A stretch of 51,926 nt of DNA, from contig JAFLKM010000063.1 of the NCBI GenBank assembly GCA_019163335.1, forward strand, positions 1 to 51,926, given 5' to 3'. The translations under genes were made by a program, and so were the position numbers. This stretch comes from Desulfobulbaceae bacterium (GTDB lineage: Bacteria > Desulfobacterota > Desulfobulbia > Desulfobulbales > Desulfocapsaceae). Every line of letters starts with the position of its first letter. The first letter of the stretch is position 1. Below are positions 1,803 to 40,293 of this stretch, piece by piece. Under the pieces are notes generated by a model. It saw only the letters and a program-made list of their open reading frames with translations, did no database searches and was not told the DNA's origin.

Positions 1803-1875
1803 GACTTACAGATTATTTTCTTGTTTTTTTGTCCGAAAATAATCTGCGAAAGGCACTTATCCCGTTCATCGGGGT
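1803..1875. repeat. Structured intergenic element, copy 1 (pairs with 39597-39666)
   Basis: A 12-bp perfect stem pairs 1809-1820 with 1835-1846 around a T-rich loop. The shared tag AAAGGCACTTATCCCGTT follows, then a small hairpin at 1859-1875 (ATCCCG with CGGGGT). The same arrangement and tag recur at 39597-39666, where the main stem differs but stays paired. The element lies about 55 bases after one gene and just before the hicA promoter. It could be a miniature mobile element or a structured RNA; the sequence does not decide between them. Confidence 0.75.
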
Positions 1876-5321: not shown

Positions 5322-8300
5322 ATGACACCTGAATCCTTCATCGCCCTCTGGAAGAACAACCCTCTCACCGAGCGGGCTGGCGCGCAGGCCCATTTTGACG
5401 ATCTGTGTGACCTGCTGGGGGTGGATAAGCCCCGTGACCCGGACAACTACTGCTTTGAGCGGGGCGCAAAGAAATCTTGTGGCGGCGATGGCTGGGCCGA
5501 TGTGTGGAAGCGCGGCCATTTCGGTTGGGAGAACAAGAAGCCGGGCCGTGATCTCAAGGCCGCCTTGAAACAACTGACCGATTATGCCCTGCGCCTGGAC
5601 AACCCGCCCTTACTCGTTGTCTGCGACCGGGAGCGGATTATCATTCATACCGCTTTTACCGGCTATCCCGACCAGCCCACGGAAATCCGCATTGACGAGC
5701 TGGCCGATCCCGGCACGCGGCAAACCCTGGCCTGGGTCTTCACCGACCCGGAACGGCTCCGTCCGTCCAAGTCCACCGCCGCCATCACCGGCGAGGCCGC
5801 CGGGAAATTCGCCGGGCTGGCCGAGGGGATGCGGGCTCGCGGACAGGACGGGCAGCAGGTGGCCCACTTTTTAGTCCAATGCCTCTTTTGTATGTTTGCA
5901 GAGGACGAAGAACTTTTGCCCGGCTCGGTCTTTACCGGAATTTTGGGGAATGCGGCAGGCGATGCGGTCCGTGCCGCCGGGCGCATCCACCGGCTCTTTG
6001 TCGCCATGCGCGATGAGGGCGGCGAATATGGCGACCATGATATCGCCTGGTTCAATGGCGGCCTGTTCAAGACCATCGACATTCCCGCCTTAACCATCGC
6101 TGATCTTGCCGCTTTGCACGAGGCTGCCCACATGGACTGGCGGGCGATTGATCCCACCATTTTCGGCACCCTCTTTGAGCGCAGTCTTGACCCCGCCACC
6201 CGAGCGCCCTTGGGCGCGCACTACACCGACACCGCCACCATTGAAAAACTCATCACCCCGCTGATTTTCGACCCCTTGCTGAAAGAATGGCAGGCGGCCA
6301 AGGTGGTGATTGCGGCGGGTGCAGGCAAGGGCCAGCGGAGCAAGGCCTGCAAGGATGCAAGCGTCGCCTGGCACGGCTTTCTCACTCGCCTTGACCGCTT
6401 CCGGGTTCTTGATCCGGCCTGCGGTTCGGGCAATTTTCTCTATCTGGCCCTGGCCGCGTTGCGTGAGGTGGAACGGCGGGTCCTGCTCGAAGGCTTTGAG
6501 CTGGCCGGCTATCAGCCCGGGCTTTGGTTGCACACCGGGCCGCATAACATCTGCGGTATTGAGATCAACGAGTATGCCGCCGAGCTTGCCCGTGTTACCG
6601 TCTGGATCGGCGATCTCCAGTGGCACCGGCGCAATGGCCGTGAAATTGTCCGCAATCCGATCCTGCGCTCCCTTGACACCATCGAACGGCGGGACGCCTT
6701 GCTGGGTGAAGATGGGAGCGAGGCGAGTTGGCCAACGGTGGATGTGATTGTCGGCAATCCGCCGTTTTTGGGGGGCAGCAAGAAGCGAGGCGAACTGGGA
6801 GATGCCTATTTTGAGGCCCTGGCCCAGTGCTACGAGGGCCGAGTACCGTCGGGTGCCGATCTGGTGACCTATTGGTTTGAGAAGGCGCGGGCGCAGATTG
6901 AGTCAGGGCAGGCGGCAGCCGCAGGACTGGTTGCCACCAACTCCATCCGCGGCGGGGCCAATCGCAAGGTCTTGGAGCGGATCGTAGCCAGCACCCAAAT
7001 TTTCGAGGCCTGGAGCGACGAAGAGTGGATCAATAATGGTGCGGCGGTGCGGGTGTCACTGGTCTGTTTTGGCAACCCTTCTACCACCCCCAACCCCCTC
7101 CTTATCAAGGCGGGGGCTTTAGCTCCCCCTCCTGAGTCAGGAAGGGGCCGGGGGGTGGTTGGGCTGAACCACGTCAACCTGGACGGCCAGCCGGTTGCGG
7201 CTATTCATGCGGACTTGACGGCTGGGGTGGGGATGGATGTGACGAAGGCGTTGAAGTTGCCGGAAAATATGGGGGTGAGTTTTCAGGGATCGCAGAAAAT
7301 AGGGGCCTTCGACATCCCCGGTGAACTGGCCCGGCAATGGCTCAAGCTCCCCAATCCTAACGGTAGGCCCAACAGCGAGGCCCTTAAGTCAAGCTGGAAC
7401 GGCCTAGATGTCACCCGCCGCCCCCGTGATGGTTGGATTATTGACTTTGGTACAAGAATGTCTGAGGTTGATGCCGCGCTCTACGAAGAACCTTTCCAGT
7501 ATGCATTAAAGAATGTAAAGCCGGTACGGGATACGAATAATCGAGAGTCCTACCGAAAATACTGGTGGCGGCATGGTGAACCGCGTATCGCCATGCGGGC
7601 GGCCTTGTCAAAGGTTCAGCGTTATATCGTAACGCCCGAGGTGGCAAAACATCGTATTCTCATTTGGATGCATGGTACAATTTTACCAGATAAAAGATTG
7701 ATCGTCATCGCCCGTGCCGACGACACTACCTTTGGCATCCTCCATTCCCGGATGCATGAGCTGTGGGCGTTGAAACTTGGTGCAACTCTCGAAGATAGGC
7801 CATGTTATCGGCCAAGTACATCCTTCGAGACCTTCCCCTTTCCCGCTGGCCTGGCCCCTGCCGATACCGCACCCAAAAGCGACGAAGAAAAGCGGGCCTT
7901 TGGCTATACCCCGCTTATGGGCAGCATCGGTGATGAAAGCAACAAGCCTGGCGCGCCATCCAGCAGCCCAACGCCTGCTATCCTTGCCGATCCAACCATG
8001 CGCGGCCATGCGCAGCCCATCGCTGCCGCCGCCTTCCGCTTGAATCAGCTGCGGGAAAGCTGGCTCAATCCGCCCGAGTGGGTCGAATGGGTGCAAACCC
8101 TGGAAGAAAAAGAGGCCGGATTTCCACCGCGCCCGACTGCCAAGCCGGGACATGAGGCCGATCTCAAAAAGCGGACGCTGACCAACCTCTACAACCTCCG
8201 TCCGGCCTGGCTCAACCTTGCCCACCGCGATCTTGACGCAACAGTCGCCGCTGCCTACGGCTGGGCCGACTACACGCCGGACATGACCGAGGCAATCATC

Positions 8301-38432: not shown

Positions 38433-39551
38433 ATGTCCCATCAGCCTCAAAGAATCCTTGTCACCGGCGGTGCCGGTTTTATCGGTGCTAATTTTGTTCA
38501 CTTCTGGCTGCGCCGCTATCCCGGCAGCCGGGTGGTGGTGCTCGACGCCCTGACCTATGCCGGCAACCGTGCCAGCCTGCTGGCAGCTGAGTCAAATGGG
38601 AACTTTCGGTTTGTCCATGGCGATATCCGCGATTATGCCCTGGTGTCCGGCCTGTTGCGGGATGAACAGATTGACACCCTCATTCACTTTGCCGCCGAAT
38701 CCCATGTGGATCGCTCCATCCATGGCCCGGATGAGTTCATTGACACCAATGTGGTTGGTACCCATGTCCTGCTCAAGGCGGCCAAGGCCGTATGGCTGGA
38801 TGGCGGACCCTGTCCGCACCGGTTTCATCATGTCTCCACCGATGAGGTCTACGGCACGCTGCTCGCCGGCGCGCCGCCCTTCACCGAAAATAACCAGTAC
38901 GCGCCTAATTCCCCCTACGCAGCCACCAAGGCGGCCTCCGATCATCTGGTGCGGGCCTATCATGAAACCTATGGCCTGGAGGTGACGACCAGCAACTGTT
39001 CCAATAATTACGGGCCGTACCAGTTCCCGGAAAAACTGATCCCCCTGATCATCGGCAATATCCTCGATGGCCGGCCCCTGCCTATTTACGGCGACGGCCT
39101 GCAGATCCGTGACTGGCTCTATGTGGATGATCATAACCGGGGCATTGATCTGGTGGTGCGCCAGGGCAGGCCCGGCGAGACGTACAATATCGGGGGGAAT
39201 AATGAGTGGACCAATATCGAGATTGTTCGTTTGATCTGCCGCCTTGTGGATGGGAAATTTATGGGCCAGGAACCCGGTCGTGACACAATGCGTAAAAGAT
39301 TTCCGCACGCCCCGCAAGTGTTCGGAGCCAATGCGGAAAGTCTGATCACCCACGTCAAAGACCGGCTGGGCCATGATCGCCGCTATGCCATTAATGCCGG
39401 CAAGATTACAGCTGAGTTGGGCTATGCCCCGATGGAGTCCTTTGAAACTGGAATCCGCAAGACCCTTGACTGGTATCTGGACAATGAAGACTGGTGGCGG
39501 TCGGTGATGGATGGAAGCTACCGGAAGTGGGTGGAATTGAACTATGCTTAA
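38433..39551 (+). CDS. rmlB: dTDP-glucose 4,6-dehydratase
   Basis: RmlB converts dTDP-glucose to the 4-keto-6-deoxy sugar. The 372-residue short-chain dehydrogenase has VTGGAGFIGANFV, HFAAESHVDRSI, the STDEVYG segment, the catalytic YAATK, and RDWLYVDDHNRGI. Placed last in the operon (order A-C-D-B), 11 bases after rmlD. The pathway is complete in this window. The C-terminal 15 or so residues are slightly longer than usual. Confidence 0.95.
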   Translation: MSHQPQRILVTGGAGFIGANFVHFWLRRYPGSRVVVLDALTYAGNRASLLAAESNGNFRFVHGDIRDYALVSGLLRDEQIDTLIHFAAESHVDRSIHGPDEFIDTNVVGTHVLLKAAKAVWLDGGPCPHRFHHVSTDEVYGTLLAGAPPFTENNQYAPNSPYAATKAASDHLVRAYHETYGLEVTTSNCSNNYGPYQFPEKLIPLIIGNILDGRPLPIYGDGLQIRDWLYVDDHNRGIDLVVRQGRPGETYNIGGNNEWTNIEIVRLICRLVDGKFMGQEPGRDTMRKRFPHAPQVFGANAESLITHVKDRLGHDRRYAINAGKITAELGYAPMESFETGIRKTLDWYLDNEDWWRSVMDGSYRKWVELNYA

Positions 39552-39596
39552 GCAAATAGGATAAAGAAGGGAAGACCGTTTTCAGGGTTGTTTTAT

Positions 39597-39666
39597 GACT
39601 TGCAGAGTATTTCTTGTTTTTTACAAGAAATACTCTGCAAAAGGCACTTATCCCGTTTGTCGGGGT
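39597..39666. repeat. Structured intergenic element, copy 2 (pairs with 1803-1875)
   Basis: GCAGAGTATTTCTTG at 39602-39616 pairs perfectly with 39624-39638 around a T-rich 7-base loop, and two more T-A pairs extend the stem. The shared tag AAAGGCACTTATCCCGTT and the small hairpin ATCCCG/CGGGGT follow (39650-39666). Compared with copy 1, a G-C pair in the main stem is replaced by T-A, so both sides changed together. It lies about 45 bases after rmlB and about 50 before the ferredoxin gene. Confidence 0.78.
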
Positions 39667-39716
39667 CGAGTAAGCCCTTGGGAATAGAGTATAAAATTTA
39701 AAAATGGAGTATTGCC

Positions 39717-39902
39717 ATGTGGGAAGTCATTGTTGATAAGGATAAATGCAAGGGAAGTGAAGAGTGTGTCAGCGCCTGTCCAGCATCTGTCTACGAGATG
39801 GTTGATGGAAAGGCTGAACCGGTGAATGCCAGCGAATGCATCGGCTGCGAGACCTGTGTAGAGGTTTGTCCCAATGGGGCTTGTACGGTTACTGAGGTTT
39901 AG
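39717..39902 (+). CDS. Small ferredoxin, probably [3Fe-4S][4Fe-4S]
   Basis: This 61-residue electron carrier has two cysteine motifs. The second is the classic CIGCETCVEVCP. The first reads CKGSEECVSACP: the second cysteine of a CxxCxxC motif is Ser14, leaving three cysteines (11, 17, 21), which in other ferredoxins goes with a [3Fe-4S] cluster or a non-cysteine ligand. Such short ferredoxins are frequent in sulfate-reducing Desulfobacterota. GGAG lies 8 bases before the ATG. It is flanked by structured repeats on both sides. Its redox partner is unknown. Confidence 0.9.
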   Translation: MWEVIVDKDKCKGSEECVSACPASVYEMVDGKAEPVNASECIGCETCVEVCPNGACTVTEV

Positions 39903-40150
39903 AGACCGTTATGAAATAAGCAAGGTCTTCGTCTTGCTTGTTTCATTTACGGTCTCTTATGCCGCATCCCCGAAACAGCAATCTTTTCGGCTGTTTTGTG
40001 GTGTGGCGTCCGGCAAACAACATCTGCCGAAGATTATACAGGAGGTCGTAACGAACTGAGCAAGGTCTTCGTCTTGCTTGTTTCATTTACGGCCTCTTAT
40101 GCCGCATCCACGAAACAGCAATCTGTCCCGCTGTTTGAGAGCGTGGCGTC
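39901..40150. repeat. Two tandem 140-bp structured repeats downstream of the ferredoxin gene
   Basis: A unit beginning at 39901 recurs exactly 140 bases later at 40041. The best-conserved 66 bases (39919-39984 and 40059-40124) differ at two positions. Each unit has a long imperfect hairpin (39901-39957; 40042-40097) whose top is AGCAAG/CTTGCT, and a second one (AAACAGC/GCTGTTT, 39973-39996 and 40113-40136) with conserved stem and variable loop. In the long stem an A-T pair of unit 1 is G-C in unit 2. A weaker third copy may lie at about 40190-40242. Open frames across the units seem accidental. Confidence 0.75.
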
Positions 40151-40261
40151 CCCTGGCCTAAGATTATCCCAAAGTCCGTATGCCAGCCAAACAAGCTTTC
40201 TTTCATGTGTGTCTTCATTGCCGACCTCTTATATGATGCGCCGGAACAACACCACACCCAA

Positions 40262-40293
40262 CCCCCTCCTTGAAAAAAGGAGGGGGCTTTTTT
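40262..40293 (+). terminator. G/C-rich hairpin with T-run, likely terminator
   Basis: CCCCCTCCTT at 40262-40271 pairs perfectly with 40277-40286 around GAAAA, followed by CTTTTTTG. It fits a Rho-independent terminator and ends about 57 bases before rsmE. The arm AACCCCCTCCTT is the same motif found in the palindromic repeat inside the restriction gene (7083-7159), so it may be a shared repeat that serves as a terminator here. Confidence 0.7.

Follow-up and report, generated by a model that had tools for sequence, protein, structure and literature searches.

According to the accounts in PMC6006769 and PMC8266576, IS200/IS605 enzymes read hairpins; a guide tetranucleotide at the foot of the hairpin sets where they cut, and insertion takes place next to a tetranucleotide. 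REP/REPIN sequences, which are thought to be mobilised by RAYT/TnpA-REP, and the CGTC-tagged palindromic repeats, in PMC3733652 high-copy hairpins without linked transposase gene as far as that source describes them, are the other close relatives in form. The element described here represents a new family of small mobile elements with two hairpins each, which occurs in sulfur-cycling bacteria and behaves as a non-autonomous IS200/IS605 element would.

Like IS200/IS605 elements, it has a hairpin near each end and a tetranucleotide just 5′ of the foot of the right hairpin, inserts on the 3′ side of a fixed tetranucleotide, leaving the target unduplicated, and closes at its right end on a similar tetranucleotide. 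However, it is 81 nt long and gene-free with no autonomous partner in the loci examined, and its first hairpin (H1) begins right at the target TTAG, leaving no space for a left guide as in IS608. Moreover, transposition of IS200/IS605 elements is strand-specific, whereas the 22 copies scored in 800 kb of the relative G003 were oriented 11 to 11 with respect to GC skew, with no replication-strand bias. With REP/REPIN sequences the element shares high copy number, mostly extragenic location, a tetranucleotide at the hairpin foot and the presence of RAYT-like genes in its genome. Compensatory hairpin change, which it also shows, is described for REPINs in PMC3116915. The differences are that it carries TTAG/TTAT and not GT[AG]G (GTAG stood on the left of 2 of 85 full own-genome copies), consists of two unlike hairpins in one orientation, flanks none of the RAYT-like genes examined and has precise empty sites between species. 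The CGTC-tagged repeats have another tag, 8–9 bp stems and single hairpin units in what PMC3733652 describes of them. MITEs with terminal inverted repeats (TIRs) are likewise small, non-autonomous and interspersed, but the element has no such repeats, and no target duplication at clean sites. Hence, we do not file it as a REP, since neither the tag nor RAYT linkage was found, nor as a proven IS200/IS605 derivative, since an autonomous partner was not found and no strand bias was seen. A literature search, largely outside subscription journals, gave no TTAG/TTAT two-hairpin element and none from Desulfobulbales.

Two copies stand in the window, the whole 51,926-nucleotide stretch of DNA that was analysed, with the following features.

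1798–1878, + strand: element copy 1 (81 nt), layout TTAG-H1-TTAT-H2-TTAG; covariance model score 104.5 bits.
1798–1801, + strand: left TTAG of copy 1, read from the sequence and, by analogy with empty sites elsewhere, the putative target tetranucleotide.
1800–1857, + strand: hairpin H1 of copy 1, with bulged outer stem, inner stem (1809–1820/1835–1846) and T-rich loop; from fold and pair counts.
1857–1860, + strand: TTAT of copy 1 between the hairpins, at the foot of H2, a candidate guide position; read from the sequence.
1859–1875, + strand: hairpin H2 of copy 1, ATCCCG-TTCAT-CGGGGT; from DNA and RNA fold and pair counts.
1875–1878, + strand: right terminal TTAG of copy 1, brought by the element; from empty-site comparison of other copies.
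39592–39669, + strand: element copy 2 (78 nt), its site empty in G003; model score 79.1 bits.
39600–39640, + strand: hairpin H1 of copy 2, with arms 39600–39617 and 39623–39640 of 18 nt, 100% complementary; from inverted repeat and fold.
39650–39666, + strand: hairpin H2 of copy 2; from DNA and RNA fold.

The initial annotation of this DNA had noted two elements with a common tag and a 3′ hairpin, and both traits were confirmed. Exact copies of the 18-nt tag AAAGGCACTTATCCCGTT stand at 1849–1866 and 39640–39657; matches within 3 mismatches are expected 0.06 times, and two were reached in 0 of 100 shuffles. The tag comprises part of the 3′ arm of the outer stem (AGTGCCTT/AAGGCACT) plus the beginning of the second hairpin. 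Both copies fold far beyond shuffles, with z values of −5.3 and −9.0 as DNA and −4.2 and −6.8 as RNA, and 0 of 200 shuffles equalled either copy in either calculation. The extents first given, 1803–1875 and 39597–39666, were too short on both sides.

In the consensus the order is TTAG, H1, TTAT, H2 (CCCG-TTYRT-CGGG type) and TTAG, and H1 consists of an outer stem TGCCTT/AAGGCA with a bulge, an inner stem of ~15 bp and a T-rich loop. The ends are asymmetric: on the left the TTAG target itself abuts H1, and TTAT sits at the foot of the right hairpin. Flanks outside the consensus have no common sequence, with a slight T excess just before and an A excess just after. Among the 85 full own-genome copies, the left tetranucleotide was TTAG in 60 and TGAG, TAAG or TCAG in 12 more; on the right TTAG (36), TCAG (11) and TTAA (10) were found. 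Left and right agreed in 30 of 85 copies against 26.2 ± 2.4 after shuffling (p 0.09), which is not decisive alone.

The element had been taken to be present twice, and this was far too low. The tag within 3 mismatches occurred 143 times in the own genome, compared with 5 occurrences of the reversed pattern. Within 4 mismatches, 109 stretches were extracted, 88 with a recognisable left end and 21 without; 85 of the 88 were aligned after exclusion of an opposite-strand echo (L054:907) and two copies that were not full (L036 and L039). The covariance model built from these 85 copies was then used for the genome searches that had been proposed. It gave 149 matches among 150 candidates scored in the 3.2-Mb own genome, a lower bound, and 12 of these were opposite-strand echoes of a near-palindrome, leaving at least ~137 copies. 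Including the own genome, 35 of 58 genomes carried the element with 1 to at least 80 matches each: all 17 genomes of the genus (from 1 to at least 80 matches), 9 of 20 others of the family and 9 of 21 in the rest of the order. In G041, from another family, there were 35 matches, the best one near the consensus.

An exact 29-nt pattern hit 76 stretches in a named genome collection: 34 in one Desulfoarculaceae genome (KA05), 16 labelled Desulfobulbaceae, 13 Desulfocapsa, 5 Desulfocapsaceae, 5 Delta- or Proteobacteria, 2 Syntrophus and 1 Rhodocyclaceae. The last, a single copy (L337) on contig JACDZI010000131.1, is possibly misbinned; accession and isolate name look like those of the same study as an element-rich Desulfocapsa bin. 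The consensus had no match among phages or plasmids and an exact 25-nt pattern had none among viral contigs, and a phage or plasmid origin was rejected on these results.

Gene context followed no general rule. The 85 full copies comprised 67 intergenic ones, 14 overlapping a naively called ORF and 4 at an edge, and among the 67 the stop of the left neighbour faced the element in 28 and that of the right neighbour in 32, without preference. The earlier observation that the elements lie between genes, 45–55 bases past a stop codon on the same strand, thus describes the window copies approximately (~50 nt past the stop of an ORF ending at 1748, and ~40 nt past that of an ORF ending at 39551, both on the same strand) and does not extend to the family. 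Copy 1 has a TonB-like gene and HicA/HicB as neighbours, and copy 2 a nucleotide-sugar dehydratase-like gene and a ferredoxin. The HicA/HicB toxin-antitoxin pair, at 1932–2532, lies directly downstream of copy 1.

Comparison with relatives showed the element to be mobile, as one of the two readings first offered, a miniature mobile element, had it: sites are empty in relatives, copy number is high and varies, and the ends are sharp. Across the L056 alignment, identity of G003 and G005 to the own genome is mostly 82–92%, and all four own-genome element sites of this locus are empty in both; near its site B, a different copy lies in G003 in opposite orientation. The 109 own stretches were compared with 800 kb of G003 as well as with four smaller loci of G003/G005. 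A flank matched for 47, and both flanks were placed together in 38; after removal of right-end-only entries and one echo, and with L039 included, 28 left-end copies were left. In 20 of these 28 full copies with both flanks aligned, the relative has net 1–6 nt instead of the element. Unaligned flank bases numbered at most 9 in 14 of the 20 empty sites and 18–83 in L001, L054, L055, L056:3830 and the L064 pair; the calls for the L064 pair and L023 depend on short flank matches. The other eight (L003, L031:5493, L039, L056:2023, L057, L058, L063 and L078) are not simple empty sites, as the relative carries other or element-related DNA there or the flank is rearranged. At L056:2023 the G005 match has net 50 nt, yet the site is clean in G003. 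Element-related DNA was seen in G003 at L083:7376, L057 and L039.

The clean sites L022, L087 and L056 sites A and C gave the insertion rule. The empty sites (slash, insertion point) read TTAG/TCAT at L087, TTAG/CCAGA at L022, where the right end of the element is CTCG, and TTTTTAG/CATTTT at L056 site C, where it is TCAG. At L022 the right end CTCG differs from the target TTAG, so the right tetranucleotide did not arise by duplication of the target. The element inserts 3′ of an existing TNAG, mostly TTAG, without target-site duplication, and its right tetranucleotide is element-borne. Copies truncated at the 5′ side looked like retroposition at first, but the one at L083:7376 has a full-length counterpart in G003, and L021, L062 and L073 at least are read as copies interrupted by another repeat. 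That repeat contains GGGGACTGAATTTATTTTGAGGCTTTATGC or its complement.

The long 5′ stem had been described as differing in sequence while staying paired, with a G-C to T-A change on both sides, and the enlarged alignment agrees: columns 16–48 are UA in 65, AU in 7 and GC in 6 of 85 copies. Across the full 28-pair structure of these 85 copies, 90.8% of 2371 cells pair compared with 87.2% after shuffling, so that the refuting case named, further copies with an unpaired main stem, was not borne out. Cells changed on both sides numbered 66 against 14.7 ± 3.2 (0 of 500 shuffles), and the covariation score was 0.166 against 0.098; these shuffles overstate significance because the copies are related. 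Pairing fell to 45–54% in slid structures. Pairs with both-sided change numbered 12 against 9.2, a value reached by 57 of 500 shuffles and not extreme, and thus the covariation signal is concentrated at few inner-stem positions. For other genomes, 55 matches in 50 chosen loci were used (49 distinct rows; 7 echoes). This alignment is biased in favour of the model, to which it was fitted; paired cells make up 96.3% compared with 88.5%, 74 cells changed on both sides against 13.1 ± 3.0 (0 of 500 shuffles), and 13 pairs show both-sided change against 6.8.

Relatives also carry changed hairpins in the same frame. In G017 (genus g2) a fuller model gave 56 matches, and among 30 copies read, the left TTAG was present in 27 and TTAT before H2 in 24. 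Their H2 was exactly CCAGCTCAGCTGG in 12 and a near variant in 8, and in the other 10 it was of ACCCC...GGGGT type; those 10 end differently and lack the right TTAG. Moreover, the frame recurs in a second repeat family, TTAG-GAGCCGTTACGAAAT...ATTTCGTTACGGCTCC-TTAT-GCCGC...GCGGC, whose stems are unrelated to those of the window family. It is represented in the window as follows.

39899–40015, + strand: second-family repeat, TTAG-H1-TTAT-GCCGC...GTGGC hairpin, 3′ end approximate; from the repeat pair and matches in G003.
40042–40151, + strand: decayed second-family copy, 85% identical to 39899–40015; from the repeat pair.

The TTAG of the copy at 39899 overlaps the ferredoxin stop codon, and this copy has many matches in G003. 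The second family of the window happens to end in GGCGTC. Between the window family and the GAGCCGTTACG family, target and frame are in common and stem sequence is not. Second-family copies adjoin family-1 copies past a shared TTAG (L282, L325), a second-family H1 is joined to a family-1 H2 at L340, and chains of copies sharing one TTAG occur at L378, L362 and L282. We infer that both families have a common mover. It is possible, and we suggest it tentatively, that they belong to a class of mobile single-stranded DNA defined by the layout TTAG-H1-TTAT-H2-TTAG, with exchangeable hairpins, shape-reading enzymes encoded elsewhere and stems renewed by template switching. A generic TTAG-stem-TTAT finder gave 11 matches in 800 kb of G003 compared with 1 in the reversed control, and none in the window; it was too strict, as it missed bulged family-1 copies, and 4 of the 11 G003 matches were terminator-like (two places, both strands).

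Discrete ends, the at least ~137 interspersed copies, kept pairing and the largely constant TTAG/TTAT/TTAG frame form the basis for our preferred reading, that this is 81-nt non-autonomous mobile DNA which probably moves as folded single-stranded DNA, with a Y1 HUH transposase acting in trans as the candidate mover. A Y1 enzyme in trans is the most likely mover and the best among the families tested, because the own genome has 7 Y1_Tnp matches and none for Y2_Tnp (IS91) or IS110. From the first start codon, six of the seven frames are of 200–282 aa and one of 106 aa, and by these lengths we take them to be RAYT-like. At L089 (own contig C1, 143–146 kb), one RAYT-like Y1 gene is present as three adjacent copies, some of them truncated.

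In the mechanism that we propose, such a transposase of the IS200/IS605-RAYT superfamily would bind H1 and H2 by shape, cut at the left TTAG and past the element's own right TTAG, and join the excised strand again on the 3′ side of another TTAG. The junction of the excised element would read GGGGTTAG joined to TGCC, and TTAT at the foot of H2 would occupy the position of the IS200/IS605 guide tetranucleotide. A further insertion may use the right TTAG as its target, and such reuse would string copies together head to tail. Template switching within the hairpin during replication probably accounts for part of the paired stem change.

Searches for a partner used the Y1 matches of 17 genus and 4 other genomes, with frames from fetched loci (47 distinct in one set) compared by BLAST, and no clade was conspicuous. 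None of 54 Y1 regions scanned (5 + 28 + 21; some cut by contig ends) was flanked by the element, the nearest clear copies lying ~1.3 kb (L150) and ~6 kb (L092) from a scanned Y1 gene, and 20 further regions, scanned with the strict stem finder only, gave no linkage. Neither in the Y1 regions nor in the other loci examined was there an autonomous copy that combined these ends with tnpA, although one may exist elsewhere in the genomes. Likewise, no gene between the hairpins was found among left-end-only and right-end-only copies, which were just decayed, interrupted, variant or palindromic-echo copies. In 17 genomes, the number of element matches (at least 80 at the top) showed a weak correlation with the number of open Y1 frames that reach 200 aa (Spearman 0.44, p 0.075) and none when every Y1 match was counted (Spearman 0.07, p 0.80); G001, 76% complete, has at least 80 element matches and a single Y1 match.

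These results leave some room for the same mobile element having another mover, a site-specific recombinase or HUH protein with the crossover in a common TTAG core, which we regard as a doubtful but real alternative. It would accord with the lack of linkage to all Y1 genes examined, with the lack of strand bias (one orientation in 41 of 76 cases in named loci, besides the GC-skew result), and with the BLAST comparison, in which no clade of Y1 frames was common to all high-copy genomes; the CGTC-tagged repeats are a precedent without linked transposase in what PMC3733652 describes. However, Y2_Tnp and IS110, the two other families tested, had no match in the own genome. A classical MITE would instead carry terminal inverted repeats and duplicate 4 bp of target; IS5 has the target YTAR, and an IS5-like origin would explain TTAG on both sides as a duplication, for which the counts of 60 and 36 in 85 and the slight excess of equal ends could be quoted. 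This reading is very improbable and was rejected, as the asymmetric ends lack terminal inverted repeats and, at L022, L087 and L056, the target stays on the left and the tetranucleotide on the right is another one.

Strong conserved pairing, mostly intergenic location and a stable RNA fold are also what a cis-acting regulatory RNA (attenuator, riboswitch or mRNA stabiliser) would show, and a new regulatory RNA family was the other reading first offered. Nevertheless, most comparable sites (20 of 28) are empty in a close relative, no rule holds for orientation or position relative to genes, the window neighbours of the two copies are unrelated, and no Rfam 15 family matched the window above its gathering score. 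We rejected this explanation, the least credible one, on empty sites and gene context. Pairing itself is kept, as had been noted, but the step from conserved folding to selection needs care: covariation alone does not show selection on RNA, because DNA hairpins pair as well and loop inversions suggest template switching. An inverted loop, with an A-run for the T-run, was found in 3 of 27 perfectly paired copies and 1 of 187 imperfect ones (one-sided Fisher 0.0066), after a classification revised twice, the first version giving 2 of 20 against 2 of 172 (A/T loops; p 0.055). Loop inversion together with simultaneous paired changes corresponds to published footprints of template switching, as far as PMC8794818 describes them. 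It is suggestive, then, that DNA template switching contributes to the covariation. That the covariation is mostly such a mutational product, arm copied onto arm, and not folding selection is nonetheless hardly likely: H2 in another genus differs and still pairs, and unrelated stems of the same layout are also paired, so function probably needs hairpins too. Covariation of the stems is compatible with two forces, a hairpin needed for movement and template switching that copies one arm, and template switching is more a complement to movement as folded single-stranded DNA than its rival.

Empty sites between species reveal the insertion rule of the element, and domesticated Y1 transposases can thus be tested on a defined substrate and target. 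In addition, the element is a warning against taking covariation alone, in interspersed hairpins, as evidence for an RNA gene.

Other repeats accompany the element. At L056:7450–7577, a separate repeat of ~127 nt with terminal inverted repeats TTCCATTTCTNAATCAAG is inserted within an element copy, and it has many copies in the own genome and relatives. In the window, a C-rich repeat, ACCACNCCCAACCCCCTCCTT, stands at 40251–40271 and 7083–7103, with more matches in G003; a G-rich inverted partner and a T-run come after it at 40251.
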